Part shown: piece after piece, positions 1-63,020 of the stretch | How the letters are laid out: the number at the start of each line of letters is the position of its first letter | Numbering within the stretch: the first letter of the stretch is position 1 | Origin: Schizochytrium sp. TIO01 | Lineage: Eukaryota > Sar > Bigyra > Thraustochytrida > Thraustochytriidae | DNA: 64,000 nt | Direction: 5' to 3' | Assembly (NCBI GenBank): GCA_004764695.1 | Contig: SMSO01000034.1 | Location: forward strand, 3,480,501-3,544,500 | Translations under genes and position numbers: made by a program | Notes under the pieces: generated by a model | Database searches by the model: none | Seen by the model: only the letters and a program-made list of their open reading frames with translations | What the model was told of the DNA's origin: nothing

Positions 1-1127
1 TTTAATATCAGGGCTCTTCGATTAATTTGAGACTACCCTTGGTATATTAAGTGTATACCTGAACAAATATGTTCCGTAGCTCTATTGAATATCGGAAATT
101 TACCTGTGCTTCTAAATATTCTTGCAAAGCCTTGTATCACGCCTACTTAAATGATTATTGACAGCTAGGGGGTGAGTACGGACTAATCCGAGAAACGAAA
201 GAAAGCAAGTTAGATAAGGCTTGAAGAGGGTTCCTTAAATTTTGGCTTCCAAATTTAGCGATCTGTTTTCTTTTAAAGTGAGTTCGGAGGTAATCTAATT
301 GATGCTATGTTCAAAAGAATTAGATCGACTCAATATAGATATAAGATCATTGAAGATATTTGATTAGCTCACTTAATCATTCATGAATTTAGATTGCATT
401 GTAAAATTCTATTGAGCGTGTATGTGCACTATAGTTATTGATGTCCTTTGTTTCACAACTACGGATCTGGTTGTCTAAACCTAATCCTATTCAGAAATTA
501 ATTCTTTGAGAACTTCTAATCGCACGATAACAACTCTAGTAATCTCTTTTTCATATGTCTCAGCGATGGGTGGCTGCGTTGATTATTTTTCAAATTAGTT
601 TTGAGCTCTCAATCATATTGAATATGCAACTCCTCTTGCTAAATTTATCAGAAAACCCAATAGTTTGAATAGCAGTTTTCTTTGCCGCATTTAAGAGATT
701 TGAGCACTGCAACGATTGACAATCAAGTCTACCACTGATAGAGTTCTAACAAGTCAATTGTGCGAGTCTTGGCCTATGTGAAGCTTCTGGAGAAGCATAG
801 TAATGCACATAATGGCTCCCAAACCCCCAAGTTATTGGCGTGAGTAAATCCTAAGCACTCTTTAGATTACACCTAAGCTAACCTAAACCAAAACAACGGA
901 TGAAATCTGTCAAATACCTAGCCTTGACTAACGTCTGAGAGCCACAAGTGTATTCCCGATGCTTCGTATATAATAGGTATGGAGCTGAGATAATCAGAGG
1001 ACCTGGTAAACTTTACCAATACCAGAAGATTACTAAGTAATAAGTCGAGACTACTCAGCTTTCATTCGTCACTGCACTCAACGTCTATCAATTAACTACA
1101 TCTTCATGAAATCTCAAAGTTCATAAG

Positions 1128-1541
1128 TGCTGAGATCTCCAATCGAAGGAACTGGTGGGCAAGACACTGCTATAGTTCTTGGCGTCCCTTTGTGAAACCC
1201 TCACTGACATAAGGATTAAAATAGAGCAAGAGTAGGCAGCCAGATTCATGCGTCTGCCATAGTTAAGAATTTAAAGTGTGATTACACAGTACTTACATCC
1301 AAGTATGGTGTAGCTTGGATCGATAGTTGAAGAGGTTGAATTAACCTAGCCCCATCGACTATCTCTATCACCTTAAAGATTGCTTTAACCTCCTTAATTA
1401 CTACATGATTCCATCTTCCTGGAATTCATTCTCCAGGACAGCAGTTCGCTAACTCTTAAATCAAGCTTCTTAAAGCCTTCATCAAGATCTTGCCTTCATA
1501 TTTATAGTCAACCTCAAGCTGACCAGAGTCATTTTTTAGCA
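1128..1541 (+). mobile_element. Solo-LTR-like element, copy 1
   Basis: This 414-bp unit is homologous along its length (roughly 80% by eye) to the unit at 2800-3214 and, inverted, to 19402-19819. It begins TGCTGAGA and ends TTAGCA, so it has the TG...CA ends of a long terminal repeat. The five bases before it (1123-1127, ATAAG) recur exactly after it (1542-1546, ATAAG), as expected for a 5-bp target-site duplication. No internal retrotransposon coding region lies nearby, so a solo LTR left by LTR-LTR recombination fits best. A short non-autonomous DNA transposon is the alternative. Strand is assigned by the TGCTGAG end and is otherwise arbitrary. Confidence 0.7.
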
Positions 1542-16254: not shown

Positions 16255-18897
16255 ATGCTCGAGGGTCGATTCGTGGCACTTGCCACGCTCCTCTGCGTGC
16301 TTGTCTCTAGTGCGACAGCCGCAACAACCAACATCTCTTCATGCATCTTCGATGTTGTTCTCGTCTTTGACCAGTCTGGAGACCAGGCATACATTGAGGA
16401 GCAGCAGGAGACCGCTCGCTCGCTCATCGACTACTTCAACATTGGCGTCGAGTCTTACAATGACCACTTTGGTGCGATCACCTTCGACAGTGCCATCTAC
16501 AACGAGGAGGATCTCATGCAGCTGGCTGACAGAAACGAGACTGTGACCTACATTGATGCTATCAACCAGAGCAACAGCTCCGACACTAACCTTTACCTTG
16601 CCCTCAACAAGTCCACCGAGATGATGCTCGATGCTCGTGACAACGTCACCAAGCTCATTATCGTCTTCGGTGATGGCAACAACTACGTATCTGTTGAGAA
16701 CGAGACCACTGTCTACCAGTACTGCACTAACGCTACCACTGAGCTTTCTTGCCTCACCGAGATTGTCAGCAATGCTAAGACCACCAACGATGTCAACGTT
16801 CTCTACGCCCCCACCTCCAACTCCTCGAGCAACGTTTTCGAGGAGAGCCCTCTCTCAAGCTACGTGATTGACGCTGATGTCTACATTTCTCACATTCAGG
16901 AGCAGTGCAACAGCTCCAGCTCCAGCTCCAGCTCTAGCTCTGGATCTGGATCCGGTTCTGGCACTATTTCTGGCGGATCTTCTTCTGCTAGCGAGAACGG
17001 CACCTCTTCCCCCACTAAGAAGCCCACCAAGAAGCCCTCCACTGGTTCTTCTTCTAGCAACAGCTCTGGTGACTCCCCCACTGCTGCCCCGACCAAGAAG
17101 CCCACCTCTGGTTCTTCTTCTTCTTCTAGCAACAGCTCTGGCGATTCTCCCACTGCTGCCCCGACCAAGAAGCCCACCTCTGGTTCTTCTTCTTCTAGCA
17201 ACAGCTCTGGCGATTCTCCCACTGCTGCCCCGACCAAGAAGCCCACCTCTGGTTCTTCTTCTTCTAGCAACAGCTCTGGCGATTCTCCCACTGCTGCCCC
17301 GACCAAGAAGCCCACCTCTGGTTCTTCTTCTTCTAGCAACAGCTCTGGCGATTCTCCCACTGCTGCCCCGACCAAGAAGCCTACCTCTGGTTCTACTTCT
17401 TCTAGCTCCACTTCTGCCCCGACCAAGAAGCCTACCTCTGGTTCTACTTCTTCTAGCTCCACTTCTGCCCCTACTGTCAAGCCCACCAAGAAGCCAACCT
17501 CTAGTTCTTCCTCCAGCTCTAACTCTTCCCCCACGTCTGCTCCGACTAAGAAGCCCACCTCCAGCACTAGCTCTGGTACTGGCGACTGTGTGAGCAGCAG
17601 CAACGGCAGTGGCAGCAGCATTAGCTGCACCGGTGACAGCGGTTCCTCTTCCTCTAGCTCTTCTAGCTCTGGCAGCGGCTCCTCTTCTTCTTCTTCTAGC
17701 TCTAGCGGTGGTTCTTCTTCGTCCTCCAGCTCTGGCACTACCCCTTCCCCCACCAAGAAGCCCACCTCTGGTTCCTCTTCTAGCTCCGGGTCCACTCCTT
17801 CCCCGACCTCGAAGCCCACCAAGAAGCCCACCTCTAGTTCCTCCTCCAGCTCTAACTCTTCGCCTACGTCTGCCCCAACCAAGAAGCCCACCTCGAGCTC
17901 TAGCTCTGGCACTGGCGACTGTGTAGGCACCAGCAACGGCAGCAGCAGCAGCATTAGCTGCACCGGTGACAGCGGCTCCTCTTCCTCCAGCTCTTCTAGC
18001 TCTGGCAGTGGCTCCTCTTCTTCTTCTGAGAGCTCTAGCGGCGACTCTTCTTCATCCTCTAGCTCTGGTTCTTCGCCCACCGCCAAGCCCACCAAGAAGC
18101 CTACTTCTGGTTCTTCTTCTAGCTCCAGCTCCACTTCTGCCCCGACCAAGAAGCCCACCTCCAGTTCCTCCTCGAGCTCCAGCTCTGGATCTAGCAGCTC
18201 CTCCAGCTCCAGCTCCAGCTCCAGCTCCTCCAGCTCCAGCTCCAGCTCCTCAAGCTCCAGCTCTAGCTCTGGCAGCTCTTCCAGCTCCAGCTCTGGTTCT
18301 TCCCCTACTGCTTCCCCGACCAAGAAGCCTACCTCGAGCTCTAGCTCTTCCAGCTCTGGATCCAGCAGCTCCTCTAGCTCCAGCTCCTCTAGCTCCAGCT
18401 CTTCCAGCAGCTCTAGCAGCTCCAGCTCTAGCTCTTCCAGCAGCTCCTCTAGCTCCAGCTCTGGTTCTTCGCCCACCGCCAAGCCCACCAAGAAGCCCAC
18501 CTCCTCCAGCAGCTCCGGCTCTGATTCTTCCAGCTCCTCCAGCTCTAGCTCTTCTAGCAGCAGCAGCAGCAGCTCCTCCAGCTCCAGCTCCTCCAGCTCT
18601 TCTAGCAGCAGCTCCTCAAACTCTAGCTCTGGTTCTGGTTCTGGTTCTAGCTCTAGCTCAAACAGCTCTTCTAGTTCTTCCAGCAGCTCCAGCTCCAGCT
18701 CCTCTAGCTCTAGCTCCAGCTCCTCCAACAGCTCCTCCAACTCCAACTCTGGCTCTGGCTCCAGCTCTTCCAGCTCCTCCAGCTCTAGTTCTTCTAGCTC
18801 TTCTTCTAGTTCTTCTAGCTCCTCAAGCTCGTCCAGTTCCTCCAGCTCTTCTAGCTCGGACTCTGGCGACCGCCGTGCCCTCCGCGGAATGCTCTAA
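16255..18897 (+). CDS. Secreted vWA-like domain protein with PTKKPT and polyserine stalk (paralogue 1)
   Basis: This 880-residue frame opens with a signal peptide (basic residue at 5, hydrophobic core 6-19, likely cleavage after the Ala-rich stretch near 20-23). Residues about 30-220 resemble a von Willebrand A domain: strand IFDVVLVFD with Asp39-x-Ser41, a Thr in TNLYLAL, and IIVFGDG further on. The usual last Ser of the first metal-site motif is Asp43. Cys30, and Cys in YQYC, LSCL and QEQC, are shared with the gene at 47890. Many N-x-S/T sequons are present. From about 225 the protein is low complexity: 23-residue TKKPTSGSS...SPTAAP repeats, two GDC...SCTGDSG Cys pairs, then polyserine with TKKPTS islands. 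It ends DRRALRGML with no hydrophobic anchor. Codons strongly favour C in third position and AAG for Lys, suggesting high expression. Function is inferred: surface, matrix or adhesion protein. The start is the only ATG giving a signal peptide. Confidence 0.9.
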   Translation: MLEGRFVALATLLCVLVSSATAATTNISSCIFDVVLVFDQSGDQAYIEEQQETARSLIDYFNIGVESYNDHFGAITFDSAIYNEEDLMQLADRNETVTYIDAINQSNSSDTNLYLALNKSTEMMLDARDNVTKLIIVFGDGNNYVSVENETTVYQYCTNATTELSCLTEIVSNAKTTNDVNVLYAPTSNSSSNVFEESPLSSYVIDADVYISHIQEQCNSSSSSSSSSSGSGSGSGTISGGSSSASENGTSSPTKKPTKKPSTGSSSSNSSGDSPTAAPTKKPTSGSSSSSSNSSGDSPTAAPTKKPTSGSSSSSNSSGDSPTAAPTKKPTSGSSSSSNSSGDSPTAAPTKKPTSGSSSSSNSSGDSPTAAPTKKPTSGSTSSSSTSAPTKKPTSGSTSSSSTSAPTVKPTKKPTSSSSSSSNSSPTSAPTKKPTSSTSSGTGDCVSSSNGSGSSISCTGDSGSSSSSSSSSGSGSSSSSSSSSGGSSSSSSSGTTPSPTKKPTSGSSSSSGSTPSPTSKPTKKPTSSSSSSSNSSPTSAPTKKPTSSSSSGTGDCVGTSNGSSSSISCTGDSGSSSSSSSSSGSGSSSSSESSSGDSSSSSSSGSSPTAKPTKKPTSGSSSSSSSTSAPTKKPTSSSSSSSSSGSSSSSSSSSSSSSSSSSSSSSSSSSSSGSSSSSSSGSSPTASPTKKPTSSSSSSSSGSSSSSSSSSSSSSSSSSSSSSSSSSSSSSSSSSSGSSPTAKPTKKPTSSSSSGSDSSSSSSSSSSSSSSSSSSSSSSSSSSSSSSSNSSSGSGSGSSSSSNSSSSSSSSSSSSSSSSSSSSSNSSSNSNSGSGSSSSSSSSSSSSSSSSSSSSSSSSSSSSSSSSSDSGDRRALRGML
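17035..17480 (+). repeat. Intragenic 69-bp tandem repeats
   Basis: Within the first vWA gene, units start at 17035 (66 bp), 17101 (72 bp), 17173, 17242 and 17311 (69 bp each), followed by two 51-bp variants from 17380 and 17431. Each unit encodes a TKKPT motif, a Ser run, an NSSGDS sequon and PTAAP. All lengths are multiples of three, so copy number can change without breaking the frame. Confidence 0.93.
18130..18860 (+). repeat. Polyserine-coding AGCTCC-type repeat tract
   Basis: The 3' part of the gene consists mainly of mixed AGC, TCC, TCT and TCA serine codons, often alternating as the hexamer AGCTCC, with Gly, Asn and TKKPTS islands. The mixture removes stops from other frames, producing long spurious Ala/Pro/Leu frames on the same strand and Glu/Leu frames on the opposite strand. 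Confidence 0.9.
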
Positions 18898-47714: not shown

Positions 47715-47889
47715 CACAAAGGTTTGAAAAGAAAAAGCCAAGACAAGCCTAGGCAAGAGCAGAGTGCCATTCATGTATGCTGCAGGAGGAATTTCAAACT
47801 AAGTGCCCAATTTCAACCAGGGGCACGGCAAACCCCAAACTCGATCTTCGGAGGTCGCCTGCCTGTGCGCAGCCTTCGACATCGTAACA

Positions 47890-50800
47890 ATGCTCAAGAA
47901 CTGGGCCGTGGCCGTGGCCACTCTGCTCTGTGCCGTCAACTCGGCTGCCGCTGTGACCACATGCATCTTCGATGTGGTCCTCGTCTTTGACATTTCCGGC
48001 AACTCGAGCTACATTGAGGCCCAGCAAGAGAGCGCCATCAATGCTCTCCCGTACTTCAACATTGGTACTGCTAACAGCAAGGATCATTTTGGTGCCATGT
48101 GCCTTGACGATCAGGTCTCGGTCCAGCGCGACCTTGCCAACTTTACTAGCAATGATGACACCAAGAACTACATTCATTATGATGTAGTTGCTTCTACCTC
48201 AAACGAGACCAACCTGTTTCTCGGCCTTACACACGCTAAAGAGATGATGGTCAATGCCCGCGACTACGCTACCAAGCTTATTATTGTCTTCAGTGATGGC
48301 AACAACAACATTGAGAACGTCAACAAAACTACCGTGTACCAATACTGCGATGGAATGACAAACAAGAAGAAAACTGCCGATGGCTACGAAATTTCTTGTC
48401 TTGCCGGTATTGTAGAGGATGCCATCGACAATATGGATGTTAACGTGCTTTACTCGCCGATCATGAACAGTTCCGGTGATGTCTTTCAGACCAGCCCGCT
48501 CTCCAACTATGTTATGGAGCTTGAACCTTACCTGGAGGCAATCGTTCGTAGTGATAACTGTTCTAGCATCACAGGTGGCAACACGACCATTGTTACAGGC
48601 GCTCCCTCTTCTGGTGGTCTTGACGGCGGCAGCCCAACCGCTAGCGGCAGCTCTTCAACACCCAAGCCCACGTCCAAGCCTACTCTTAACGGTGGTTCTG
48701 ACACCGGCAACGAGAACGGCAGCACCAGCAAACCTACTGCCAAGCCGACCTCCAAGCCTTCCACTGGATCTTCCACTGGCAACGAGAACGGCAGCACCAG
48801 CAAACCTACTGCCAAGCCGACCTCCAAGCCTTCCTCTGGATCTTCCACCGGCAGCACCAGCAAGCCCACTGCTAAGCCTACCTCTAAACCTTCCACTGGA
48901 TCCTCCACTGGCAACGAGAACGGCAGCACAAGCAAACCTACTGCCAAGCCTACCGCCAAGCCTTCCTCTGGATCTTCCACTGGCAGCACCAGCAAGCCCA
49001 CTTCTAAGCCGACTTCCAAGCCTACATCTGAGAACAGTGTGACCCCATCTCCTACCACCAAGCCCGAGACTGGCAATGGTGAAGGCACCACTGATGCCCC
49101 AACCTCGAAGCCTACCAAGAAGCCCAGCTCTGGATCCGGATCTTCTACTAGCGCACCTACCTCTAAGCCCACCAAGAAGCCCACTTCTGGTTCTGGCTGC
49201 ACAGGCTCTGACTGCGGCTCCAGCCCTACTGCTGAGCCCACCTCCGAGCCTACTGCTCAGCCTACTTCCAATGGTGGTGTTCAGACCTCAACTAGCGCGC
49301 CCACCTCTAAGCCCACCAAGTTGCCCACTTCTGGATCTTCTACCGGTGCGCCTACCTCTAAGCCCACCAAGAAGCCCACTTCTGGTTCTGGCTGCACAGG
49401 CTCTGACTGTGGTTCCAGCCCTACCGCCGCACCGACTGCCGAGCCTACTGCTCAGCCTACTTCCAATGGTGGTGTCCAGACCTCTACTAGCGCGCCCACC
49501 TCTAAGCCCACCAAGTTGCCCACTTCTGGATCTTCTACCGGTGCGCCTACATCTAAGCCCACCAAGAAGCCCACTTCTGGTTCTGGCTGCACAGGCTCTG
49601 ACTGTGGTTCAAGCTCTACTGGTGCCCCCACTTCTAAGCCGACCAAGCTGCCCACTGCTGGATCGTCCACTTCTGCCCCGACCTCCAAGCCGACCAAGAA
49701 GCCCACTTCTGGTTCTGGATGCACTGGATCTGACTGTGGTTCCAGCCCTACTGCTGCACCGACTGCCGAGCCCACTTCTGGTTCTGGATGCACCGGATCT
49801 GACTGTGGTTCCAGCCCTACATCTGCTCCGACCATATCTGGTACTGTAGAGACTTCCACTGGTGCACCTACCTCCAAGCCTACCTCTGGTTCTGGATGCA
49901 CTGGTTCTGACTGTGGTTCCAGCTCTACCTCTGCCCCGACCTCCAAGCCGACCAAGAAGCCTACTTCAGGTTCTGGATGCACCGGATCTGACTGTGGCTC
50001 CAGCTCTACCTCTGCCCCGACCTCTAAGCCAACCAAGCTGCCCACTGCTGGATCGTCCACTTCTGCCCCGACCTCCAAGCCGACCAAGAAGCCCACTTCT
50101 GGTTCTGGATGCACTGGATCTGACTGTGGTTCCAGCCCTACTGCTGCACCGACTGCCGAGCCCACTTCTGGTTCTGGATGCACCGGATCTGACTGTGGCT
50201 CCAGCCCTACCTCTGCTCCGACCACATCTGGTACTGTAGAGACTTCCACTGATGCACCTACCTCCAAGCCTACCTCTGGTTCTGGATGCACTGGTTCTGA
50301 CTGTGGTTCCAGCCCTACTGCTGCACCGACTGCCGAGCCCACTTCTGGTTCTGGATGCACCGGATCTGACTGTGGCTCCAGCCCTACTGCCGCACCAACT
50401 GTGACTGCTCCTCCGAGCCAGGGAGGCGAGAGCTCTGGCAATACCGATGCCCCCACTGCTCAGCCTACCTCTGGTTCTGGATCTTCTACTTCTGCCCCTA
50501 CTTCTAAGCCAACCAAGAAGCCTACTTCTGGTTCTGGATGCACCGGATCTGACTGTGGTTCAAGCTCTACTGGTGCCCCCACTTCTAAGCCGACCAAGCT
50601 GCCCACTGCTGGATCGTCCACTTCTGCCCCGACCTCCAAGCCGACCAAGAAGCCCACTTCTGGTTCTGGATGCACCGGATCTGACTGTGGTTCTGGTCCG
50701 ACTGCCGCACCAACTGTGACTGCTCCTCCGAGCTCGGGAGGCGAGAGCTCTGGCAATACCGATGCCCCCACTGCTCAGCCTACCTCTGGTTCTGGATCCT

Positions 50801-53800
50801 CTACTTCTGCCCCTACTTCTAAGCCGACCAAGAAGCCTACTTCTGGTTCTGGATGCACCGGATCTGACTGTGGTTCAAGCTCTACTGGTGCCCCCACTTC
50901 TAAGCCGACCAAGCTGCCCACTGCTGGATCGTCCACTTCTGCCCCGACCTCCAAGCCGACCAAGAAGCCCACTTCTGGTTCTGGATGCACTGGATCTGAC
51001 TGTGGTTCCAGCCCTACTGCTGCACCGACTGCCGAGCCCACTTCTGGTTCTGGATGCACCGGGTCTGACTGTGGCTCCAGCCCTACCTCTGCCCCGACCA
51101 CATCTGGTACTGTAGAGACTTCCACTGGTGCACCTACCTCCAAGCCTACCTCTGGTTCTGGATGCACTGGTTCTGACTGTGGTTCCAGCTCTACCTCTGC
51201 CCCGACCTCCAAGCCGACCAAGAAGCCTACTTCTGGTTCTGGATGCACCGGATCTGACTGTGGCTCCAGCTCTACCTCTGCCCCGACCTCTAAGCCAACC
51301 AAGCTGCCCACTGCTGGATCGTCCACTTCTGCCCCGACCTCCAAGCCGACCAAGAAGCCCACTTCTGGTTCTGGATGCACTGGATCTGACTGTGGTTCCA
51401 GCCCTACCGCCGCCCCGACTGCTGAGCCCACTTCTGGTTCTGGATGCACCGGATCTGACTGTGGTTCCAGCCCTACTGCCGCACCAACTGTGACTGCTCC
51501 TCCGAGCTCGGGAGGCGAGAGCTCTGGCAATACCGATGCCCCCACTGCTCAGCCTACCTCTGGTTCTGGATCTTCTACTTCTGCCCCTACTTCTAAGCCA
51601 ACCAAGAAGCCTACTTCTGGTTCTGGATGCACCGGATCTGACTGTGGTTCAAGCTCTACTGGTGCCCCCACTTCTAAGCCGACCAAGCTGCCCACTGCTG
51701 GATCGTCCACTTCTGCCCCGACCTCCAAGCCGACCAAGAAGCCCACTTCTGGTTCTGGATGCACCGGATCTGACTGTGGTTCTGGTCCGACTGCCGCACC
51801 AACTGTGACTGCTCCTCCGAGCTCGGGAGGCGAGAGCTCTGGCAATACCGATGCCCCCACCGCTCAGCCTACCTCTGGTTCTGGATCCTCTACTTCTGCC
51901 CCTACTTCTAAGCCGACCAAGAAGCCTACCTCTGGTTCTGGATCCTCTACTTCTGCCCCTACTTCTAAGCCGACCAAGAAGCCTACTTCTGGTTCTGGAT
52001 CCTCTACTTCTGCCCCGACCTCTAAGCCGACTGTCGAGCCTACTTCTGGTTCTGGATGCACCGGATCTGACTGTGGTTCTGGTCCGACTGCCGCACCGAC
52101 TGTGACTGCCCCTCCGAGCTCGGGAGGCGAGAGCTCTGGTAACACCGATGCTCCTACTGCTAAGCCGACCAAGAAGCCCTCTTCTGGTTCTGGATCTTCT
52201 ACTTCTGCCCCGACCTCTAAGCCGACCAAGAAGCCTACTTCTGGATCATCCACCTCTGCCCCGACCTCTAAGCCTACAAAGAAGCCCTCTTCCGATTCTG
52301 GTTGCACCGGATCTCACTGTGGTGGTGACAGCCCCACTGCTGCCCCGACTGTCAAGCCCACGACTTCTGGCACTGTAGAGACTAATACTGATGCGCCTAC
52401 CTCGAAGCCCACTAAGAAACCGAGCTCTGGTTCCGGATCTTCTACTTCTGCCCCGACCAAGAGTCCGACCAAGAAGCCCTCTTCCGGTTCTGAGAGCACC
52501 CCGGCACCTACACCGTTGCCCACTTCTAGTTGCTCTGGATCTGGCTGTGGATCTGGCTCTACTGCTTCCCCGACCTCGAAGCCCACCAAGAAGCCCACTT
52601 CTAATGGCAACTCCGAGAGTAATACCGATGCCCCCACCAAGAAGCCCACTAAACAGCCCACATCTGGTTCTTCTACTGATGCTCCTACTGCTAAGCCGAC
52701 CAAGAACCCTACTTCTAGTTCCGGTTCCAGCAGCGGATCTAGCAGCAGCAGCTCCTCTAGTTCTTCCTCGTCCTCATCTAGCAGCAGCAGCTCCTCCAGT
52801 TCTTCCTCGTCCTCATCTAGCAGCAGCAGCTCCTCCAGTTCTTCCTCGTCCTCATCTAGCAGCAGCAGCTCCTCCAGTTCAAGTGGCTCCTCTAGCAGCA
52901 GTGGATCTTCCTCCTCGTCTAGCAGCAGCTCCTCCAGTTCTTCTTCATCTAGCAGCAGCAGTTCCTCCAGTTCTTCCTCTTCCTCATCCAGCAGCTCAGG
53001 CTCCGGATCTGGTTCAAGCAGCGACACCGCAGCACCTACGAAGAAGCCCACTAGCAGCTCTAGCTCTTCCGAGGGTACCACCAGTGCCCCAACCTCCAAG
53101 CCAACCAAGAAGCCCACTTCCGCTTCTTCTGGTTCTGACAATGGCAGCACCGCCGCTCCCACCAAGAAGCCTACCTCTTCTAGTTCGGGATCTGGCTCTG
53201 GCAGCAGCACTAGTGCCCCGACCAAGAAGCCCACATCTGCTTCTTCGGGTTCTGACAACGGCAGCAGCACCAAGGCACCGACCGCCAAGCCCACCAAGAA
53301 GCCCACTAGCAGCTCTAGTTCTGGTTCCTCTGAAAGCAGCACCAGTGCTCCCACCAAGAAGCCCACTTCCGCTTCTTCGGGTTCTGACAACGGCAGCAGC
53401 ACCAGTGCTCCCACCAAGAAGCCTACCTCTTCTTCTTCTGGTTCTGACAATGGCAGCACTAGTGCTCCCACCAAGAAGCCTACCTCTTCTAGTTCGGGAT
53501 CTAGCTCTAGCTCCAGCAGCAGCTCTTCTAGCTCTAGCTCCAGTAGCAGCTCTTCCAGCTCCAGCAGCAGCTCTTCTAGCTCTAGCTCTTCTTCCGGATC
53601 TAGCTCTGGCTCCTCGTCTGGATCTAGCTCTAGTAGTTCGAGCTCCAGCTCTTCATCCTCTTCGTCATCCAGCTCCTCGTCTTCTTCGTCTAGCTCCAGC
53701 AGTTCGAGCTCCAGCTCTTCCTCTGGATCTAGCTCCAGCTCTGGCTCATCGCCTACCAAGGCCCCGACTAAGAAGCCCACCTCCAGTTCTAGCTCTGGAT

Positions 53801-54189
53801 CTAGCTCTAGCAGCAGCAGCAGCAGCTCTTCTTCGTCTAGCTCCAGCTCCTCATCTTCTTCTTCGTCGTCTTCGTCCAGCTCCTCTAGCTCCAACTCTGG
53901 TTCTAGCTCTGGTTCTAGCTCTGACTCAAGCAGCAGCTCTTCTAGCTCCAGCTCCAGCAGTGCCTCCAGCTCTAGCTCCAGCTCCAGCTCCAGCTCCAGC
54001 AGTGCCTCTAGCTCCAGCAGCTCCAACTCTGGTTCTAGCTCTGACTCAAGCAGCAGCTCTTCTAGCTCCAGCTCCAGCAGTGCCTCCAGCTCTTCTAGCT
54101 CTAGCTCATCCGACTCTAGCTCCAGCAGCGAGTCTGGCGCCCGCCGCCTCTTCAACTGGGGCCGCAGATTGCTTCGCGGAACGATGTAA
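47890..54189 (+). CDS. Giant secreted vWA-like protein with Cys-x4-Cys repeat and polyserine stalk (paralogue 2)
   Basis: This 2099-residue frame starts at the ATG followed by a signal peptide (Lys3, hydrophobic 5-16, Ala-rich cleavage site near 19-21). An in-frame GTG at 47803 would add 29 residues and hide the signal. Residues 25-225 are a vWA-like domain paralogous to that of the gene at 16255: Cys25-IFDVVLVFD, Asp34-x-Ser36-Gly-Asn38, TNLFLGL, IIVFSDG, and shared Cys in YQYC and ISCL. Residues about 230-1610 are Thr/Pro/Lys/Ser/Gly repeats: first SKPTAKPTSKP with GNENGS, then blocks of APTSKPTKKPTSGSG, with about 23 copies of CTGSDC plus CTGSHC and CSGSGC. From about 1610 it is polyserine with TKKPTS islands, then Ala-Ser blocks. 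The tail is GRRLLRGTM. No transmembrane or GPI segment is visible. GC-ending codons dominate. The role is unknown: probably an extracellular matrix, wall or adhesive protein. Confidence 0.9.
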   Translation: MLKNWAVAVATLLCAVNSAAAVTTCIFDVVLVFDISGNSSYIEAQQESAINALPYFNIGTANSKDHFGAMCLDDQVSVQRDLANFTSNDDTKNYIHYDVVASTSNETNLFLGLTHAKEMMVNARDYATKLIIVFSDGNNNIENVNKTTVYQYCDGMTNKKKTADGYEISCLAGIVEDAIDNMDVNVLYSPIMNSSGDVFQTSPLSNYVMELEPYLEAIVRSDNCSSITGGNTTIVTGAPSSGGLDGGSPTASGSSSTPKPTSKPTLNGGSDTGNENGSTSKPTAKPTSKPSTGSSTGNENGSTSKPTAKPTSKPSSGSSTGSTSKPTAKPTSKPSTGSSTGNENGSTSKPTAKPTAKPSSGSSTGSTSKPTSKPTSKPTSENSVTPSPTTKPETGNGEGTTDAPTSKPTKKPSSGSGSSTSAPTSKPTKKPTSGSGCTGSDCGSSPTAEPTSEPTAQPTSNGGVQTSTSAPTSKPTKLPTSGSSTGAPTSKPTKKPTSGSGCTGSDCGSSPTAAPTAEPTAQPTSNGGVQTSTSAPTSKPTKLPTSGSSTGAPTSKPTKKPTSGSGCTGSDCGSSSTGAPTSKPTKLPTAGSSTSAPTSKPTKKPTSGSGCTGSDCGSSPTAAPTAEPTSGSGCTGSDCGSSPTSAPTISGTVETSTGAPTSKPTSGSGCTGSDCGSSSTSAPTSKPTKKPTSGSGCTGSDCGSSSTSAPTSKPTKLPTAGSSTSAPTSKPTKKPTSGSGCTGSDCGSSPTAAPTAEPTSGSGCTGSDCGSSPTSAPTTSGTVETSTDAPTSKPTSGSGCTGSDCGSSPTAAPTAEPTSGSGCTGSDCGSSPTAAPTVTAPPSQGGESSGNTDAPTAQPTSGSGSSTSAPTSKPTKKPTSGSGCTGSDCGSSSTGAPTSKPTKLPTAGSSTSAPTSKPTKKPTSGSGCTGSDCGSGPTAAPTVTAPPSSGGESSGNTDAPTAQPTSGSGSSTSAPTSKPTKKPTSGSGCTGSDCGSSSTGAPTSKPTKLPTAGSSTSAPTSKPTKKPTSGSGCTGSDCGSSPTAAPTAEPTSGSGCTGSDCGSSPTSAPTTSGTVETSTGAPTSKPTSGSGCTGSDCGSSSTSAPTSKPTKKPTSGSGCTGSDCGSSSTSAPTSKPTKLPTAGSSTSAPTSKPTKKPTSGSGCTGSDCGSSPTAAPTAEPTSGSGCTGSDCGSSPTAAPTVTAPPSSGGESSGNTDAPTAQPTSGSGSSTSAPTSKPTKKPTSGSGCTGSDCGSSSTGAPTSKPTKLPTAGSSTSAPTSKPTKKPTSGSGCTGSDCGSGPTAAPTVTAPPSSGGESSGNTDAPTAQPTSGSGSSTSAPTSKPTKKPTSGSGSSTSAPTSKPTKKPTSGSGSSTSAPTSKPTVEPTSGSGCTGSDCGSGPTAAPTVTAPPSSGGESSGNTDAPTAKPTKKPSSGSGSSTSAPTSKPTKKPTSGSSTSAPTSKPTKKPSSDSGCTGSHCGGDSPTAAPTVKPTTSGTVETNTDAPTSKPTKKPSSGSGSSTSAPTKSPTKKPSSGSESTPAPTPLPTSSCSGSGCGSGSTASPTSKPTKKPTSNGNSESNTDAPTKKPTKQPTSGSSTDAPTAKPTKNPTSSSGSSSGSSSSSSSSSSSSSSSSSSSSSSSSSSSSSSSSSSSSSSSSSSSSSSSSSGSSSSSGSSSSSSSSSSSSSSSSSSSSSSSSSSSSSSSGSGSGSSSDTAAPTKKPTSSSSSSEGTTSAPTSKPTKKPTSASSGSDNGSTAAPTKKPTSSSSGSGSGSSTSAPTKKPTSASSGSDNGSSTKAPTAKPTKKPTSSSSSGSSESSTSAPTKKPTSASSGSDNGSSTSAPTKKPTSSSSGSDNGSTSAPTKKPTSSSSGSSSSSSSSSSSSSSSSSSSSSSSSSSSSSSSSGSSSGSSSGSSSSSSSSSSSSSSSSSSSSSSSSSSSSSSSSSSGSSSSSGSSPTKAPTKKPTSSSSSGSSSSSSSSSSSSSSSSSSSSSSSSSSSSSSSNSGSSSGSSSDSSSSSSSSSSSSASSSSSSSSSSSSSASSSSSSNSGSSSDSSSSSSSSSSSSASSSSSSSSSDSSSSSESGARRLFNWGRRLLRGTM
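49570..52100 (+). repeat. Higher-order coding repeats with 1089- and 1266-bp spacings
   Basis: Inside the second vWA gene, the block around 49611-50240 recurs 1266 bp later (50877-51490). The block around 50447-50800 recurs 1089 bp later (51536-51890), almost without change. Both distances are multiples of three. The pattern points to successive unequal exchange. Short-read assembly could miscount these copies. Confidence 0.85.
52700..54130 (+). repeat. Polyserine-coding repeat tract
   Basis: Serine runs of tens of residues are encoded by mixed AGC, TCC, TCT, TCG and TCA codons, including a tandem of the block GTTCTTCCTCGTCCTCATCT with AGCAGCAGCAGC near 52760-52880. TKKPTS islands and, near the end, Ser-Ala and SNSGSSSDSS blocks interrupt it. 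Confidence 0.9.
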
Positions 54190-55522
54190 TATCCGAACCG
54201 TCAAGATCTTCAATTCTGATAGGATCGATAATCAATCAAAACAGATCTTTATGAAAATATCTTTTATCTTACCTAAGTTCTTTCTTGGCTTCGTTGCAGC
54301 TATGTTCAGACTTATGGCACACATAGTTAGTTACTTAGTTCTTTGGTGAACTTGTCAATTGGGTTTGTGGATTCCGAAAGTAAACGCTTAATTGAGAGGT
54401 TTCAAGGCTGGGAATGGCCAAACAAGAACGAATCTCATCGAAGAATGCATACAGATAGTTAGTCACTTTCACAGCGTAGACGAAGCCAAGGCAACTGTCG
54501 CGGAATGAATGATCAGTTCTCTACAGCGGTTGCATGTTATGAAGAAATCATGGCACCGCGGGTACAGCTTGGAGGTGGAGTGAAGGCTTGGATTGAGACA
54601 TTCAACCAGCTTGGAAATTATGTCGGTACTGCGACTGACCCAAACTCAATTTAGTCGTTATGTATCCCACATATAAAAGCACTTAGCTTTTGCAATAACC
54701 AAGTAAGCAATTGTGGAGAGGCATACAGCTTATATGGTGCTCTACTGCTATCTTAAAATATCCAAAGCTGTGTTCCTTGTCGAGTTCTTTTCTGTCGCAC
54801 CATCCATCATCATGTCTTTGGTTTTTGTCTTCGTCTTAGCTTTAAACCCAACGTTTTGTGGGTCTTTCCCTGTGCGAGACTAGCACGAGGGGACTAGCAC
54901 GAGGGGACTAGCCACTCCCTAGGCACTTCTATGTACTACAGCTTGGGAGAACTATGAGTGTTGAGTCGTATGTTTTCCAATAGTTACATTCTTATCCTCT
55001 GCTCTTTTAAAAATGATCCGTTGTGTTGGCGCGGATGGTCACTCTCAAAACTCCCAAGCTTGCAACTCAAACTTATCCTTGTCCTAACTTGAGCACAGCT
55101 AAAGACCAGATGAAGGCAAGGCATCGCCCATGTAGCTTTGTGAGCTTGCCATCCTCAGCGAACAATATCTTTGAATTCAAAGATAATAATAGAGCAAGAA
55201 TACTCAACACAGTATAAGGTGTTGTTCTTAAGTGGTGCGCTGTCCTGGTGTAACAGGGAACAGGCTTGCGGTGTGCCCAGTATTTTCATTTGAGAGTTCC
55301 ATTTGGAGTACCTTTTTCGATATAGTTGTATTGGTCGACTAGCTAGATAGTTGCCCCAAGTCCTTCCTTGTGGTCTCTGCTCTTGTTGAGCGAGTCAGAG
55401 TAGAGACCTAGGTAAGTGAGCTTTCCTCTTGCGCGTTTGGAGCGCGCGGGAAATCTCCCTGCCGACGCCCGCAGGATTGGATCGGAGGCATCCTGCAGAT
55501 TGCCAACGCAATCAGCCCCGAA
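54190..55522. other. Intergenic region between vWA paralogue 2 and the kinase
   Basis: This 1.3-kb stretch must hold the 3' end of the upstream gene and the kinase promoter. It is moderately AT-rich with no long simple repeat. A 14-bp unit (ACTAGCACGAGGGG) occurs twice with a partial third at 54879-54911. No gene, TATA box or RNA gene is evident. Confidence 0.6.
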
Positions 55523-58500
55523 ATGGACCGCTTTGAGATATACGATGTCATAGGTCGAGGAGCTTTTGCTGATGTGGAGCGAGTAAGGCGCAAAGAGGAT
55601 GGAAGACTGCTGGTGCTGAAGACTCTGAGGGCCGGAGTTCAAGATCTTTCTGATGCTGAGCGCAAAGAAATGATAAACGAGGTCAAGCTTCTATCAGAAC
55701 TCAATCACCCAAACGTAATTCAGTATTTTGGGAGTTTTGTCGAGGAAGGTAGGCAACACATTGTTATGGAGTATGCTGCGGGTGGAGCTCTGGCACAAGT
55801 CTTGAAGCAATCCAAATCCCTCCTGCCCGAAGATCAGATTTGGGAATGGTTTTCGCAAATATGCATTGCATTACGTTATGTTCATAGCTGCAATATATTA
55901 CACCGCGATATCAAGCCACAAAACATACTTCTATGGGGGCCTGAACGTCGTGTAGTTAAGCTTGCTGACTTTGGCATTGCGAAGGTCCTCTCTGCACCAT
56001 CCCATTTAGGTATGCAGCTCGTAGGAACGCCTTATTATTTATCTCCAGAAACTTGTTCTGGTGGGATATACACTCAGAAAAGTGATGTGTGGGCCCTCGG
56101 TTGTGTTTTATACGAAATGGTCTCCCTTAGTCGTCCTTATCAATCCCCAAACCTTGCTCAACTTGCACTCCAAATTATCTGCGAAAAACCCCAGCCCTTA
56201 CCACGAACTACAGCAAGAACATTTTCTGACGCTATCAAAGAGCTCATTGAATTATTATTGCAGAAAGATGCGTCTGAGCGCCCCGATATGGAGGAGCTTT
56301 GTTGTGCTCCGGTAGTGCGTCACAAGATGCAACTCTGGGACGCGTTCCGAGATTCATTGATACATAACGAGGCGAAAAATGTGCAAGCAGAAGCTGATGC
56401 TTATATTTTATATCGAAGGGAGCAAGCGGCTCAAATTACAACAGATAATGTTACTCGTAGTACATCAAACAACAGTGAACAAGCGTCCTTCACTAATGAA
56501 ATTCACCCTGAAAGTATTGCTGGTTCGCAAGAAAATCCCAACCAGAATGCTTATGTAACCTCACCACAAAGAAAACCACGTGGCGCGAAATCTATGTCAG
56601 TTTTAGAGCAAAATGCAGTTTTTCGTAGAGGAAGTGGTAATGCAAGCGTAGTAGAGTCTCTGTCTCCACGTTCATGTGTGGAACATGAAGGGAGTATGAC
56701 AGGTAAAAGCTTTTTCAGTACTGGAAGTCCACGGGCAAGTCTAGTCGGCGCAGTTAGTCATGCTAAACGTAGTAGCTTAACACCAGGACAACTGGGTACC
56801 TTGAATTTTGGTGGCAGCTTTGGGCGCATTCGCTCTTCAACTGGGGTTTTCTCTGGTTCAAGCGATGCACGTGACTCAGGAATGTCTTATACTTCAATGT
56901 CAGATTCGGAAGCTCGTATCCTCATGTCTCTAATAATCCGTGATGGTGTGCGAGTCTTTCGATGGGGTAATGGGCAGCGGCGACCAATCCTTGATGCAAA
57001 TTTGTATAACATGACCTTGCAGCATAGCTTGAATGTTGATCTTATCGCAGGAACTCGTTTCGAAGAATCTGATTCAGAGCTCGAGCATACTCTTGTGCTG
57101 ACAGAAGAGGGACAGGTATTTAGCTTCGGTTGCAATAGTTCAGGTCAACTAGGCCTTGGGAACACATCAACAGCTTCTCATGCTCGTTTGATACTCAGGC
57201 ATGTCAAGTACTTTGCTGAACGATCTATCTCAATTGCAAGCATTTCCTGTGGATCTGAGTTCTCGGCTGCTGCATCACGCGATGGCAAGGTTTATTTGTG
57301 GGGAGATTTGGATTCATTAGGCTCACCTAAAGATCTCGAGCTAAAAGTGGAAATGTGCTGCGATCTTGCAGGTCTTACGCGTCAACATTTTGTAGAAGGC
57401 ATGTCAGAAACTTCCTCAATTAGTGATAGCGATGCTGATCGAAGTCCATGGACTGGTCAATCTTCATTGGATGAAATTAAAATCCCTTACAATCGGGAAC
57501 TTGCGAGAAATAAGCAAGATTCTGGAAGACCAATTGCAACTGAGGAGGAAAATAATCAAGGTGCACGTGTTCAGGGAACAATGGCAATTAATTGCTCCTC
57601 GAAGAAAATGGATCAACCAGATGCTACAGAATGCTCAGACAGTCCAAAAGATAGTACAATATCAACATCATGCGCAAGCCAGTCAAGTGCAACAGAGGAA
57701 GACTATGCAGATGCTTCAGAATGGCCGGCCTGGGCGCAAGAAAGAGCCCAAGATCTACAACAGCAACAACGACAGCAGCAAGCTATATGTAATCTTCCTC
57801 AATCTCACAAAAATAAGGGAGCCAAGAATCGCACAACAGAGCTTGTTGTGGATGTTGGTGAAAGCACGAATGAAACCCCTCCCAGTTGGCCTACATGGGC
57901 TCAAGAGGCATATAGCCAGCAAATGGCCGCTCAAAACGCTGTCAATGAAACTTCAAGTTCTGCACTCAGAGAAGACATTTTGCAAGAGGAAATCGAGGAG
58001 GCTCCTGAGAGATGGCCTGCTTGGGCACGCGCGGAATTCAACAGACAAAAGTCCGTGAGATCTTTACTGACCCCAACACAGAATCCCTTCGCAAGCCCTG
58101 CTCATTCCTTAAATGGGACAAACCCTTCGTCTTTATCCTCATCGAATTCTTTAAGTTCGGGCGTGAGATCTCTCAAGTCCTTTGGTAGTGCTCAGTCACA
58201 GGCCGGGTTGTACAATTCAAGTAATTCAATTCCATCCTCAGTATCGTCGTCTGGGAGACCCAAAAGCCCAAACCCATTTGCGAGCGACAATGTTTTTAGC
58301 CTTCCTGATATTGATGAACCTGAGTTGGTACCATCAATGGTTCGTTCGTACGGCCCTTCTTACCTTGATAATGATGAAGGCCACGAAGAGGAAGTCAAAC
58401 TTGATGAAGATGGAGATAAAGATGAAGAATGTCTTGTTCACGCTCGAGGAACTCAGGCGACAGATCTTAACACAAATAGAAGCAACTCACAATCTGTGTT

Positions 58501-60358
58501 GAATGAAGATCAAGACAAGGTGCAAAGTCACACGCTCGTAAGAACTTTGACCCAAAGTATTCAAAATGGTATGTGGACAGCAAGCCGATCACGTGTGGGT
58601 TCTACCAGCTCTGCAGGTAGCAATGAGAGCTGGACAGCAGCTCTGAAACACTCTATGAGTAAGATTCTTTCTAAATCAGCTCGTTCTATGCGACGCACGA
58701 TGTCACGGTCTTCTACTTCCTCTGCTGTTAGCAAAACTCCTCCTGCGGGAGAATGCAACTCTGGTGCTTCGCCGCCTGTCGACGTTGAAAGTGCTGACCT
58801 AAGTCAACTCGATGCTCTACTGGTCGGAGGTGTTTCTAGTACAGTGGAACTTTCGAGTGATACCTCAGCTTCCCCTCCATCACATAAACCTCACAAGCTA
58901 AAAGTAGAGGGGTGTTCTACTTCAAATTTTGGTTCTAATACGGCTGCTACTGATGCATCTATTATTAAACAATCTCCTGTACCAGCAGTTCCTGATGCGG
59001 TTCCAGTTCAGGTTGGTAGACGTGTGCATCTGGTGACACAAAGGGCTGAAGACTGTGGCGTAGTACGCTTTATGGGTCGCACAGAATTTGCAAAAGGCAT
59101 ATGGGTTGGTATAGAGCTAGATAATCCAGATGGTAAGAATGACGGATCTGTTCGAGGGAAGCGCTATTTTGCTTGTGGTAAAAATCATGGAGTATTTGTT
59201 CAGCCCAAAAGCTTAATTGTAGTTGTTCCTGGGGTACCTGTTGTTTGGCCCGAATCAAGGTCGTACGCGCCAGCAATGAAAGTAAAAGTAAAATCAAATC
59301 GTCAGTTGCCCTCTGAAGCACCTAGGCGCTCCAACTCGTCACGACATGTAAATTCATTCAATCCTAACTCCCGGAGTAGCTCTCAGCTTAGGTCATCCGT
59401 CAAAATTGAAGAAGCATCACGTGAATTGCAATCATGGCATTCTTCGTCAGATCAGAGCGAGACATCACCCTCTGCACCGAGCTCTCGTGAAGCGTCGAGC
59501 AGAATTCTAGGTAGCCTTTCGTTGTCTAGTGCAGAAGAAGTTAGCAAGTATCGTTCCACAACAAGTGATGATCTACATTACCGAGTTGAGGATCATGTTG
59601 CGTCAAGTGATGGATTTGTCAACGAACCGCGCTGGGTTCATTCTCTGGCTACTGTTTTTGCCATTGAAATTGCATGTGGTTCGAATTTCGTGTGTGTCTT
59701 AAGCCGTGAAGGCCGACTTTTTTCGTGGGGCACAAATGATTTCGGTCAACTTGGACTAAATCATGACGAAGATCAAAGCCGGCCAGCATTGGTACGACTC
59801 GGGCAAGAGGATGTCGTGAAAAGCATTGCTGTAGGCGAGGGTCATGTACTGGCAGTGGCCGGTTCGGGTACATTATACGCTTGGGGGCGTGGATGCGAGG
59901 GACAACTCGGTTTGGATCGCGATATTCACGACGAGCCTAACAGTACACCGGAGGTGGTTAAACAATTTCCAGGTAAGGCAACGAACATTGCAGCTGGACG
60001 CTATCACAGTGCTGCGGTGACAGATGTTGGAGAGATCTACACTTGGGGTGAAGGCGAGAGTGGTCAACTTGGACATGGGGATCGTGATGCCCGCCGCATA
60101 CCACATCTTGTGGAGGCCCTTGGTCGAAATGGTGCAGATGTCCAAATAGAGTCAGTTGTCTGTGGAGCCGAACATACTGTAGTGCTGACAGACTATCGAG
60201 CGGTCTATGCATGGGGAGATGATCAACGTGGATCGGCAGTAAAGCTTTCACCACAATGTATAGACGCCCTTACTGGTTTTTCTGTACGCGATATATGCTG
60301 TGCTAGCTTTCAAACGTTTGCAATATGTCGTACAGAGAATCCGCAGGATGGACTGTAA
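55523..60358 (+). CDS. NEK-family Ser/Thr kinase fused to a split RCC1 propeller with inserted CAP-Gly domain
   Basis: This single 1611-residue frame begins with a complete kinase domain (about 4-265): glycine loop GRGAFADV, Lys33, Glu53, HRD 127-129, DFG 149-151 and GTPYYLSPE ending at 176, the last typical of NIMA-related kinases. After a Ser-rich linker come RCC1-type strands (from 474; FSFG...GQLGLG, VYLWG to about 620). A ~745-residue insert carries three WPxWA motifs (Trp734, Trp789, Trp831), an acidic stretch, an Arg/Ser-rich stretch and a CAP-Gly domain (about 1162-1235, GKNDG at 1204-1208). Four more RCC1 blades (1373-1605: LFSWG, LYAWG, IYTWG, VYAWG) close the protein. Animal NEK8/NEK9 combine kinase and RCC1 but not CAP-Gly. 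CAP-Gly domains bind tubulin or EB-type C-termini, so a microtubule, basal body or mitotic role is inferred. All catalytic residues are present. Codon use is AT-richer than in the vWA genes. Confidence 0.96.
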   Translation: MDRFEIYDVIGRGAFADVERVRRKEDGRLLVLKTLRAGVQDLSDAERKEMINEVKLLSELNHPNVIQYFGSFVEEGRQHIVMEYAAGGALAQVLKQSKSLLPEDQIWEWFSQICIALRYVHSCNILHRDIKPQNILLWGPERRVVKLADFGIAKVLSAPSHLGMQLVGTPYYLSPETCSGGIYTQKSDVWALGCVLYEMVSLSRPYQSPNLAQLALQIICEKPQPLPRTTARTFSDAIKELIELLLQKDASERPDMEELCCAPVVRHKMQLWDAFRDSLIHNEAKNVQAEADAYILYRREQAAQITTDNVTRSTSNNSEQASFTNEIHPESIAGSQENPNQNAYVTSPQRKPRGAKSMSVLEQNAVFRRGSGNASVVESLSPRSCVEHEGSMTGKSFFSTGSPRASLVGAVSHAKRSSLTPGQLGTLNFGGSFGRIRSSTGVFSGSSDARDSGMSYTSMSDSEARILMSLIIRDGVRVFRWGNGQRRPILDANLYNMTLQHSLNVDLIAGTRFEESDSELEHTLVLTEEGQVFSFGCNSSGQLGLGNTSTASHARLILRHVKYFAERSISIASISCGSEFSAAASRDGKVYLWGDLDSLGSPKDLELKVEMCCDLAGLTRQHFVEGMSETSSISDSDADRSPWTGQSSLDEIKIPYNRELARNKQDSGRPIATEEENNQGARVQGTMAINCSSKKMDQPDATECSDSPKDSTISTSCASQSSATEEDYADASEWPAWAQERAQDLQQQQRQQQAICNLPQSHKNKGAKNRTTELVVDVGESTNETPPSWPTWAQEAYSQQMAAQNAVNETSSSALREDILQEEIEEAPERWPAWARAEFNRQKSVRSLLTPTQNPFASPAHSLNGTNPSSLSSSNSLSSGVRSLKSFGSAQSQAGLYNSSNSIPSSVSSSGRPKSPNPFASDNVFSLPDIDEPELVPSMVRSYGPSYLDNDEGHEEEVKLDEDGDKDEECLVHARGTQATDLNTNRSNSQSVLNEDQDKVQSHTLVRTLTQSIQNGMWTASRSRVGSTSSAGSNESWTAALKHSMSKILSKSARSMRRTMSRSSTSSAVSKTPPAGECNSGASPPVDVESADLSQLDALLVGGVSSTVELSSDTSASPPSHKPHKLKVEGCSTSNFGSNTAATDASIIKQSPVPAVPDAVPVQVGRRVHLVTQRAEDCGVVRFMGRTEFAKGIWVGIELDNPDGKNDGSVRGKRYFACGKNHGVFVQPKSLIVVVPGVPVVWPESRSYAPAMKVKVKSNRQLPSEAPRRSNSSRHVNSFNPNSRSSSQLRSSVKIEEASRELQSWHSSSDQSETSPSAPSSREASSRILGSLSLSSAEEVSKYRSTTSDDLHYRVEDHVASSDGFVNEPRWVHSLATVFAIEIACGSNFVCVLSREGRLFSWGTNDFGQLGLNHDEDQSRPALVRLGQEDVVKSIAVGEGHVLAVAGSGTLYAWGRGCEGQLGLDRDIHDEPNSTPEVVKQFPGKATNIAAGRYHSAAVTDVGEIYTWGEGESGQLGHGDRDARRIPHLVEALGRNGADVQIESVVCGAEHTVVLTDYRAVYAWGDDQRGSAVKLSPQCIDALTGFSVRDICCASFQTFAICRTENPQDGL

Positions 60359-60801: not shown

Positions 60802-61947
60802 TTATGCATCGAGCCGAATTTTTTTTGCAGGGGGTTCCTCTAGCGTGCTGAGCGAGTCAGCGTCTCCATTGGGAAGCTCATCAGCGAAGGCATATGGCTG
60901 CATAAGCTCGCTTGGCGGATGTAAACCAAGTTTTTCCCAAGTGATGTCGTCTGAGATGGGTTCCATTGCGGGGTCCAGCCCCATGGTTTCCATAATTTTA
61001 TGAAGGTTCGGTTTTGGCTCCTTAATTGCTTCAATAATCGGAGATTTAGACTTGCGCGGCACAGTTGTATTGTACCTCAGCATCTGCTGTAGCATCCACA
61101 TTGTACCCCTCTCATGCTGTCCCACAAGTCTGGCTACTCTAGTATAGTCCCTCATAACATCAAATATGGGTAACGGTCCATCCATTTTAAACACGCTGGG
61201 GTTCGCAAGTGCTCCCCGAGCGATCATTATCCTGTTCGCTCCATACTCCGACCGCAATTTCTCGATATCCTTCGCTGAATAGACATCTCCATTCGCCAAC
61301 ACAGGCACGTGTACCGCATCCACGACGGCTGAGAGCCTGTCCCAAATAGCAGGCTCTCGAGGTCTGTGGTGCGTTTCGCGCATGTGAACTCCGATCGCCT
61401 GTGCTCCAGCTGCTTCCAGTCGTCTCACCAGCTCGACGGTCTTGGCGTCGTCCTCAAGTAGCCTGATCTTGCACGTAACTGTAACATCTTCGCTCAAGTT
61501 GCGTCTGAGAGCGCGTAGCATATCTTCTGCAAGCTCAGGTTTACGAAGAAGTGAAGCGCCCATCCCACCTGATATAGAGAAGTGCTTTGGACATCCCATA
61601 TTGATGTCGATGCCGGCGACGTCACGCTGGTAGATCTGGGCAGCGCGGACGACAAGGTCAGCGTCTGCGCTACCAATCTGCAGAACAACACGCTTATGCT
61701 CAAGAGAGCATGTGGTAAAAACTGTGGAGTTGTCCTTGGTCCAGAAGTACTCCACGAGGCCGCCCTCATCGCCAGAGACTTGTCGCCGCTCGGTTTCCAC
61801 GAGCTTTTTGTCAATGAGCTCCTCGGAGTACACTATGTCAGCGCCGTATGCTAAGCATAGAAGGCGCAAAGGAAGCTTCCCAGCCCGCACCATTGGTGCG
61901 AGAGCCTTTGCACCATCGCGGTACAACCTCTGCACAGCGGAGCTCAT
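60802..61947 (-). CDS. tRNA-dihydrouridine(20) synthase, DUS2 family
   Basis: The enzyme reduces a uridine in the tRNA D-loop (position 20 in the yeast and human enzymes) using FMN and NAD(P)H. The 381-residue product starts at the ATG at 61947, whose N-terminus leads directly into the FMN-barrel motif LAPMVRAGKLPLRLL, the family's usual start. An in-frame ATG at 62133 would add 62 residues of unlikely low-complexity sequence. Other signatures are YGADIVYSEELID, DINMGCPKHF with the predicted catalytic Cys119, the GGMGASLL loop, CKIRLL, IGVHMRE, VPVLANGDV and MIARGALANPSVF. The C-terminal double-stranded-RNA-binding domain of animal DUS2 is absent. The protein ends in a short acidic stretch and a basic PPAKKIRLD tail that looks like a nuclear localisation signal. 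It is convergent with the kinase gene. Identification is firm. Confidence 0.95.
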   Translation of the reverse strand: MSSAVQRLYRDGAKALAPMVRAGKLPLRLLCLAYGADIVYSEELIDKKLVETERRQVSGDEGGLVEYFWTKDNSTVFTTCSLEHKRVVLQIGSADADLVVRAAQIYQRDVAGIDINMGCPKHFSISGGMGASLLRKPELAEDMLRALRRNLSEDVTVTCKIRLLEDDAKTVELVRRLEAAGAQAIGVHMRETHHRPREPAIWDRLSAVVDAVHVPVLANGDVYSAKDIEKLRSEYGANRIMIARGALANPSVFKMDGPLPIFDVMRDYTRVARLVGQHERGTMWMLQQMLRYNTTVPRKSKSPIIEAIKEPKPNLHKIMETMGLDPAMEPISDDITWEKLGLHPPSELMQPYAFADELPNGDADSLSTLEEPPAKKIRLDA

Positions 61948-63020
61948 GCTGTCTTCACGTTGCGCTAAGCATAAAGCAATTGAATGAACGCGTGAGCCAT
62001 TTGAGTCAAGCAAGAAACAAATAGAAATATAGTATGAAAGTAGAATTTTTAACCTTATTTCAACTAAATAATAGTAGGTACCTACCCACCTACTACTAAT
62101 AGCGCGAAAGGTAGAAGAGAAGTCAGTCATCACAGAAAGAGTAAAAGAGTAATAGATCTACTAGTCAATTGATGTTTTCAATTGCTCTCTTGTTTCTCAA
62201 GCCTTGTGTCATGAACTGCTTAGTTGAGGTCAGTTTGAGCACATAAATAGAAGTGAACGAACCGAGTGCTGAAGGGTGTCTTTGATTGCTCCCGTTGACA
62301 AGATCTGTGCGTATTTGCTCGCCAATTCAATGACTGATCGAGACAATATTAAACTTGTATGTAAAGCAAAAAGTCTGAATGAATGCGTGGAGGAGTTTGA
62401 TACGAGTAGGGTAAAGGAAAAGAATTTGCAGTTAAGTTTTTATATGTTAAGGCTATCTATGGCTTTGGTGTTTAGACAGAGCCATGTAGAGTTTTCATTG
62501 TTCTTTTTCACAAGGATAAGACAATTTGAGGGGCTGGATCTGAGCATGCATTATTAGTACCTTTCTCTTTACGGGTAGCAGATGCAAGGAACTAGTTCCC
62601 CGCAGTTTAAAAACACTGTTCTGCAATTTCAAGCGGAAATCAAATACGCAGACAAACTCAAATATGAAACGATTATACAATAATAAGACAGATCTGGTTG
62701 CTAGAGCAAATGGGACCATAATGATTTCATCGAACCTTATTTGTGTAGCTTCTGCATTTGAGGTAGTACATTAGAAGGAAAAGAGCAAATTGAGGTTTAA
62801 AATATGGAAGAGATCGCGTATGTCAATGCAGCGAAATCAATATTCAATAAGGAAGGAAAAGTAATTTCCTGCTCAATTTGGAAAATGAAAAGGTCACAGC
62901 TTAGATTTGACAGTACCAGGTATTCATGAATAGATTGTTTGATTTATCGGGGTCGCTACAGTTAGGAAGTTCGCTAGTAAGATAGGTTAGTGTTGTTTTC
63001 TGCAAGGTCTCAGCACAGAT
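61948..63020. other. Intergenic region upstream of DUS2
   Basis: This 1.07-kb AT-rich stretch holds the presumed DUS2 promoter and the 3' end of the cysteinyl-tRNA synthetase gene. A short hairpin (62072-62095) lies about 130 bp before the DUS2 start. A plus-strand frame at 62276-62557 begins at GTG and has only a faint F-box-like look, so I do not call it a gene. Confidence 0.6.
62072..62095. promoter_or_regulatory. Short inverted repeat in DUS2 5' region
   Basis: TAGTAGGT (62072-62079) and ACCTACTA (62088-62095) are perfect complements around an 8-base loop, and GTAGGTACCTAC (62074-62085) is a 12-bp perfect palindrome. The position about 130 bp upstream of the DUS2 start allows a protein-binding site or a leader hairpin. 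A regulatory role is speculative. Confidence 0.35.

Follow-up and report, generated by a model that had tools for sequence, protein, structure and literature searches.

Within a 64,000-nucleotide stretch of the genome of the thraustochytrid Schizochytrium sp. TIO01 (contig SMSO01000034.1, positions 3,480,501 to 3,544,500 of the forward strand; hereafter the window), the gene at 55523..60358 (+) is an uninterrupted single frame encoding 1611 amino acids plus a stop. Its product combines a NEK-type protein kinase domain, an RCC1-type propeller and a CAP-Gly domain, the last being housed in a long insert that interrupts the propeller. We consider it probable that this is a NEK kinase with the layout of NEK8 and NEK9, in which the propeller would be closed and the tethered CAP-Gly domain would anchor the kinase to microtubules.

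Kinase, CAP-Gly domain and candidate ligands

The kinase domain (residues 5-264; 55535..56314, +) is recognised by Pfam with E = 3e-62, and its motifs are in place: VLKT at 31-34, HRD at 127, DFG at 149 and SPE at 174. Among PDB sequences it matches NEK1 best (E = 2e-56), then NEK7 and NEK2, as befits a member of the NEK family. The CAP-Gly domain (residues 1164-1230; 59012..59212, +) scores 92.8 bits against a Pfam cut-off of 26.5 (E = 1e-26) and contains GKNDG (residues 1204-1208; 59132-59146, +), which we take to be a meaningful CAP-Gly motif; score and motif together assign it to that family. It matches the PDB sequences of CLIPR-59, KIF13B and dynactin-1, and in printed alignments KIF13B and dynactin-1 also have GKNDG, whereas CLIPR-59 has GKHDG. 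The likeness to these and to CLIP-type proteins is one of CAP-Gly sequence; the domain partners differ. The RCC1 repeats fall into separated groups (Pfam RCC1, E = 4e-55; WD40_RLD, E = 3e-71, best stretch 1369-1604). The original prediction, made from the sequence alone, had placed both RCC1 regions and the CAP-Gly domain with an error of no more than about ten residues.

The C-terminal tails to which CAP-Gly domains bind are acidic-aromatic, and candidate tails of this kind are encoded in the same genome. Two alpha-like tubulins end in EEY and EEF, and EB1 ends in EDY; two further tubulin matches lack such tails. Four beta-like tubulins (L024-L027) end in EEEY, resembling the tail of alpha-tubulin, and could be ligands too; the naming of these tubulins as alpha or beta is presumptive.

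In the mechanism that we propose, the gene product would be a kinase of the NEK family, built like NEK8 and NEK9 as kinase plus RCC1, its seven-bladed propeller would, as the predicted structure suggests, stay closed across the long insert in blade 3, and the insert would act as a flexible tether bearing the CAP-Gly domain and short motifs. Binding of the CAP-Gly domain to EEY/F-type tails of alpha-tubulin, perhaps of beta-tubulin, or to EB1 would then hold the kinase on microtubules, at the spindle or at the flagellar base, while the propeller might bind other partners or restrain the kinase; binding, localisation and regulation are what we infer here. By analogy with UBR5, in which a UBA domain is tethered to a blade of the propeller (described in part of PMC10830417), the protein is most likely a NEK with built-in, tethered microtubule anchoring. 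Sections of PMC12564199 and PMC11974183 place NEK kinases at centrosomes, spindles and cilia, and describe the RCC1 domains of NEK8 and NEK9 as docking partner proteins. For NEK9, part of PMC12564199 reports that this domain restrains the kinase and docks NEK6/7. For NEK8, parts of both papers report that it confers ciliary localisation, and they differ on whether it restrains the kinase (PMC12564199 for, PMC11974183 against). Parts of these papers also connect the NEK8/NEK9 subfamily with the ciliary INV complex.

The restraint and docking reported for NEK9, and the capture of ligand by UBR5 through its tethered UBA domain (part of PMC10830417), would also fit a different role, in which the CAP-Gly domain serves regulation or assembly instead of anchoring the kinase to microtubules: by binding a second copy of the kinase, or some other protein's acidic-aromatic tail, it would control the activity of the kinase or the formation of oligomers. 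However, the protein's own C-terminus is ENPQDGL (residues 1605-1611; 60335..60355, +) and not an EEY/F tail, and canonical tails are available on the tubulins of this genome, so this role seems to us unlikely, though not far-fetched. Alignment shows ENPQDG to be invariant at the C-terminus of the window protein and its four relatives.

The predicted propeller and the position of its break

An AlphaFold2 (AF2) model of residues 470-1611 contains a single RCC1 ring built from both parts, in agreement with the original prediction of one propeller formed by residues 474-620 and 1373-1605. Over model range 6..1134 the predicted ring matches 7q40_A at 343 of its 369 residues, and the AF2 model of one relative agrees, both models covering at least 340 of these 369. 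By strand count the model has seven blades, of which blade 1 is shared by both chain ends: as had been anticipated, it is closed by an N-terminal strand, RVFRWG (residues 477-482; 56951..56968, +; strand E8-13 of the model, within the ring match), together with the last C-terminal strands. Pfam and the predicted ring thus give the order of kinase and seven-bladed RCC1-type propeller that parts of PMC11974183 and PMC3441220 describe for NEK8, and that NEK9 shares; the window protein differs from NEK9 in having no NEK9-type tail, its chain stopping just behind the propeller.

In the model, the N-terminal part of the propeller (residues 474-610; 56942..57352, +; Pfam and AF2) supplies strand C and a short strand D of blade 1, blade 2, and strands A-C of blade 3, and the C-terminal part (residues 1365-1605; 59615..60337, +; Pfam and AF2) supplies strand D of blade 3, blades 4-7, and strands A and B of blade 1. 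A 3+4 split had been proposed, and the break is indeed near that point, but it does not lie between blades 3 and 4: blade 3 takes its outer strand, FVNEPRWV (1365-1372), from the C-terminal side, so the break falls inside this blade, which is predicted to be cut between strands C and D. The insert, first put at about 745 residues, is refined to about 754 (611-1364; 57353..59614, +), and the CAP-Gly domain would, as foreseen, be presented from a propeller loop, here the predicted C-D loop of blade 3. AF2 assigns low confidence to the insert throughout, and we read it as mostly disordered except for the CAP-Gly domain.

Several features of the modelling weigh against a closed ring. Mean pLDDT is 44.1 and pTM is 0.44, with the same pTM for the relative's model; of the ten-residue blocks, half of those in the N-terminal propeller part (7 of 14) and most of the C-terminal ones (21 of 26) reach 70; the CAP-Gly domain is modelled poorly (blocks 26-39); and the model reduces the D strands of blades 1, 2 and 5 to two-residue bridges. 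The 50 matches listed by a plain Foldseek search cover 202-329 columns, less than the full ring, with target TM-scores of 0.24-0.62. AF2 may also be biased towards closed rings. The low pTM of both models and the partial Foldseek coverage could accordingly be taken to mean that the two RCC1 parts do not form one ring at all and that the prediction is a product of AF2's repeat bias. Against this stand the strand count, which gives seven blades with the first common to both parts, the coverage of 7q40_A by both models, and the precedent of interrupted rings in alsin and UBR5 (parts of PMC8773251 and PMC10830417), and we regard separate parts as very improbable.

Parts of PMC10830417 and PMC11134608 describe in UBR5 an interrupted seven-bladed propeller whose blade 1 is completed by C-terminal strands, and which carries a small binding domain (UBA) in an insertion of about 270 residues at the second blade; UBR5 differs in being an E3 ligase and not a kinase, in bearing UBA and not CAP-Gly, in the blade affected, and in having a second insertion after blade 5. 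In alsin (ALS2), about 300 residues of predicted disorder separate the first two from the last two strands of one blade, but according to part of PMC8773251 the insert has no folded domain and lies in blade 5, and the protein is not a kinase.

A probable single product and its relatives

A second copy of the gene, with an intact frame, lies on contig C9 (125,453 bases) and is probably the other haplotype. The coding regions of the two copies align gap-free and differ at 16 positions, 12 silent and 4 replacement. Residues 613-1366 account for 9 silent and 4 replacement differences, where replacements would be expected to make up 0.69-0.74 of the total (chance 0.0012-0.0056); with the CAP-Gly domain left out, the insert has 8 and 3 (chance 0.0014-0.0059). 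This coding constraint makes it unlikely that the insert is spliced out and, so far as DNA can tell, suggests that it is translated. In a simple pattern scan, pyrimidine-tract acceptors were absent from the whole frame, and donor-pattern matches from the stretch between residues 391 and 845. Although introns with weak splice sites would be compatible with the sequence, the silent-biased differences, the outcome of the scan, and four other entries in which a single predicted protein has these same domains make it highly improbable that the RCC1 parts come from different products or that the insert is removed, leaving no propeller-borne CAP-Gly domain. An artefact or fusion of neighbouring genes was ruled out by those four proteins and the second copy. 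Upstream of about 55305 (window 54023-55305) the ungapped alignment to contig C9 is lost, which points to a probable insertion or deletion between the haplotypes immediately 5' of the gene.

A whole-protein search found 471 proteins and a four-sequence profile search 3939, of which the best 120 were listed in each case; both searches scored only the candidates with most shared words. Among the matches listed, kinase, RCC1 and CAP-Gly occur together only in the window protein (P0001) and P0002-P0005. P0002 is a near-identical twin (6 of 1594 residues differ), and the other three are diverged: P0003, from Hondaea fermentalgiana (Thraustochytrida), is the closest named relative among the matches listed, at 61% identity, followed by P0004 (43%) and P0005 (39%). 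Measured in blade 3 from VYxWG to EPR, the insert spans 773 residues in the window protein, 368 in P0003, 228 in P0004 and 446 in P0005, and in all four the CAP-Gly domain is nearer its C-terminal end. These four proteins form one group, with support of 100/100 in a combined tree of 17 rows and 98/91 in a kinase tree of 43 rows (44 were gathered and one short row dropped). The deep branches of the kinase tree are weak or open, and it does not join this NEK-like kinase firmly to animal NEK8/NEK9, which limits the comparison with those kinases beyond the shared kinase-plus-RCC1 layout.

P0006 (Lingula) and P0009 (NEK9-like) are among the best named eukaryotic matches without CAP-Gly (best 120 of 471); Pfam finds no CAP-Gly match in either, and no long blade 3 insert was seen by eye in them or in P0014 and P0125. 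In the organism's own genome, none of 26 kinase-only matches had, by eye, an RCC1 match within 5 kb; only 29 of 648 candidates were scored in the search that gave these matches, so more kinase-plus-RCC1 genes may exist.

Downstream, the convergent neighbour at 60802-62133 (-) is a dihydrouridine synthase frame (Dus, E = 1e-53). Elsewhere in the window, long frames at 47803-54189 (+) and 16255-18897 (+), of 2128 and 880 amino acids, are alike in their start regions: each has a signal-like start and a CIFDVVLVFD stretch, then extended repeats rich in Ser, Thr and Pro (PTKKPT, GSGCTGSDCG). Both resemble mucin-like proteins, secreted or at the surface, of a single family; a VWA_2 match, below the cut-off, was seen in the 880-residue frame only.

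Origin of the insert and significance

Two further proteins, P0123 and P0267, have kinase and propeller without a Pfam CAP-Gly match, and carry 90 and 429 residues, respectively, at the same insert site. When the six inserts were scanned, WPxWA (pattern WP.W[AS]) was found in four: three times in the window protein (residues 734-738, 789-793 and 831-835; 57722..58027, +) and once each in P0004, P0005 and P0267, but not in P0003 or P0123. NPF, a ligand of EH domains, occurs in the same four and is likewise missing from P0003 and P0123; the window protein has it twice, as NPFA (residues 854-857 and 917-920; 58082..58282, +). Three WPxWA motifs were reached in none of 2000 shuffles of the window insert and two NPF in 2 of 2000, while the single NPF of P0004 is unsurprising (43 of 2000). 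In three of the four animal proteins scanned (P0006, P0009 and P0014, but not P0125) the string xPxW[LI] occurs late in the chain, and this short tryptophan motif may be a docking motif shared with WPxWA, or a coincidence.

Because P0123 and P0267 have inserts without CAP-Gly, and P0267 shares WPxWA and NPF, the data suggest that the loop was extended first and received the CAP-Gly domain later. The best combined tree keeps both apart from the CAP-Gly group, to which it joins the long-branched P0129 with weak support (79/77); the AU test does not reject a grouping of all six (p-AU 0.308). On these trees P0123 and P0267 may or may not be sisters of the CAP-Gly group, so CAP-Gly loss or parallel loops would also account for the pattern. 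A bolder scheme, which we advance as speculation and rather doubt, is that this lineage-specific kinase reads the microtubule surface: a tail-bound CAP-Gly domain would pull on blade 3 and shift the propeller's grip on the kinase, so that tubulin tails or EB1 would serve directly as allosteric effectors of the NEK; the motif-bearing loop (WPxWA, NPF) would have come first and CAP-Gly later.

No described NEK with CAP-Gly was known to the original prediction, and none was found in searches of the open-licence literature, where neither a NEK kinase with an RCC1 ring and a CAP-Gly domain inside it nor any thraustochytrid NIMA-related kinase turned up. Passages of two papers that name both CAP-Gly and NEK, one of them PMC1266030, show no NEK carrying CAP-Gly, and the NEK reviews PMC12564199 and PMC11974183 mention CAP-Gly 0 times. 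Table 2 of PMC1266030 does list, for trypanosomatids, a kinase of the CAMK group (VPS15 in other kinomes) that has cap-gly and resembles the window protein in joining kinase and CAP-Gly in one chain, but it is CAMK or VPS15 and not NEK, and RCC1 has 0 occurrences in the main text. The combination thus looks new, whereas interrupted RCC1 rings (UBR5, alsin) and non-NEK CAP-Gly kinases (trypanosomatid CAMK) are, from those sources, already known.

What has been built into this kinase is a domain of microtubule-tail-binding type, at a place where the predicted propeller stays closed. Thraustochytrids are transformable, and a test of tubulin-tail control therefore looks feasible. If binding is confirmed, the protein would offer a single-chain system for asking whether tubulin tails govern a NEK, and a clear example of a propeller loop as the landing site for a new domain.
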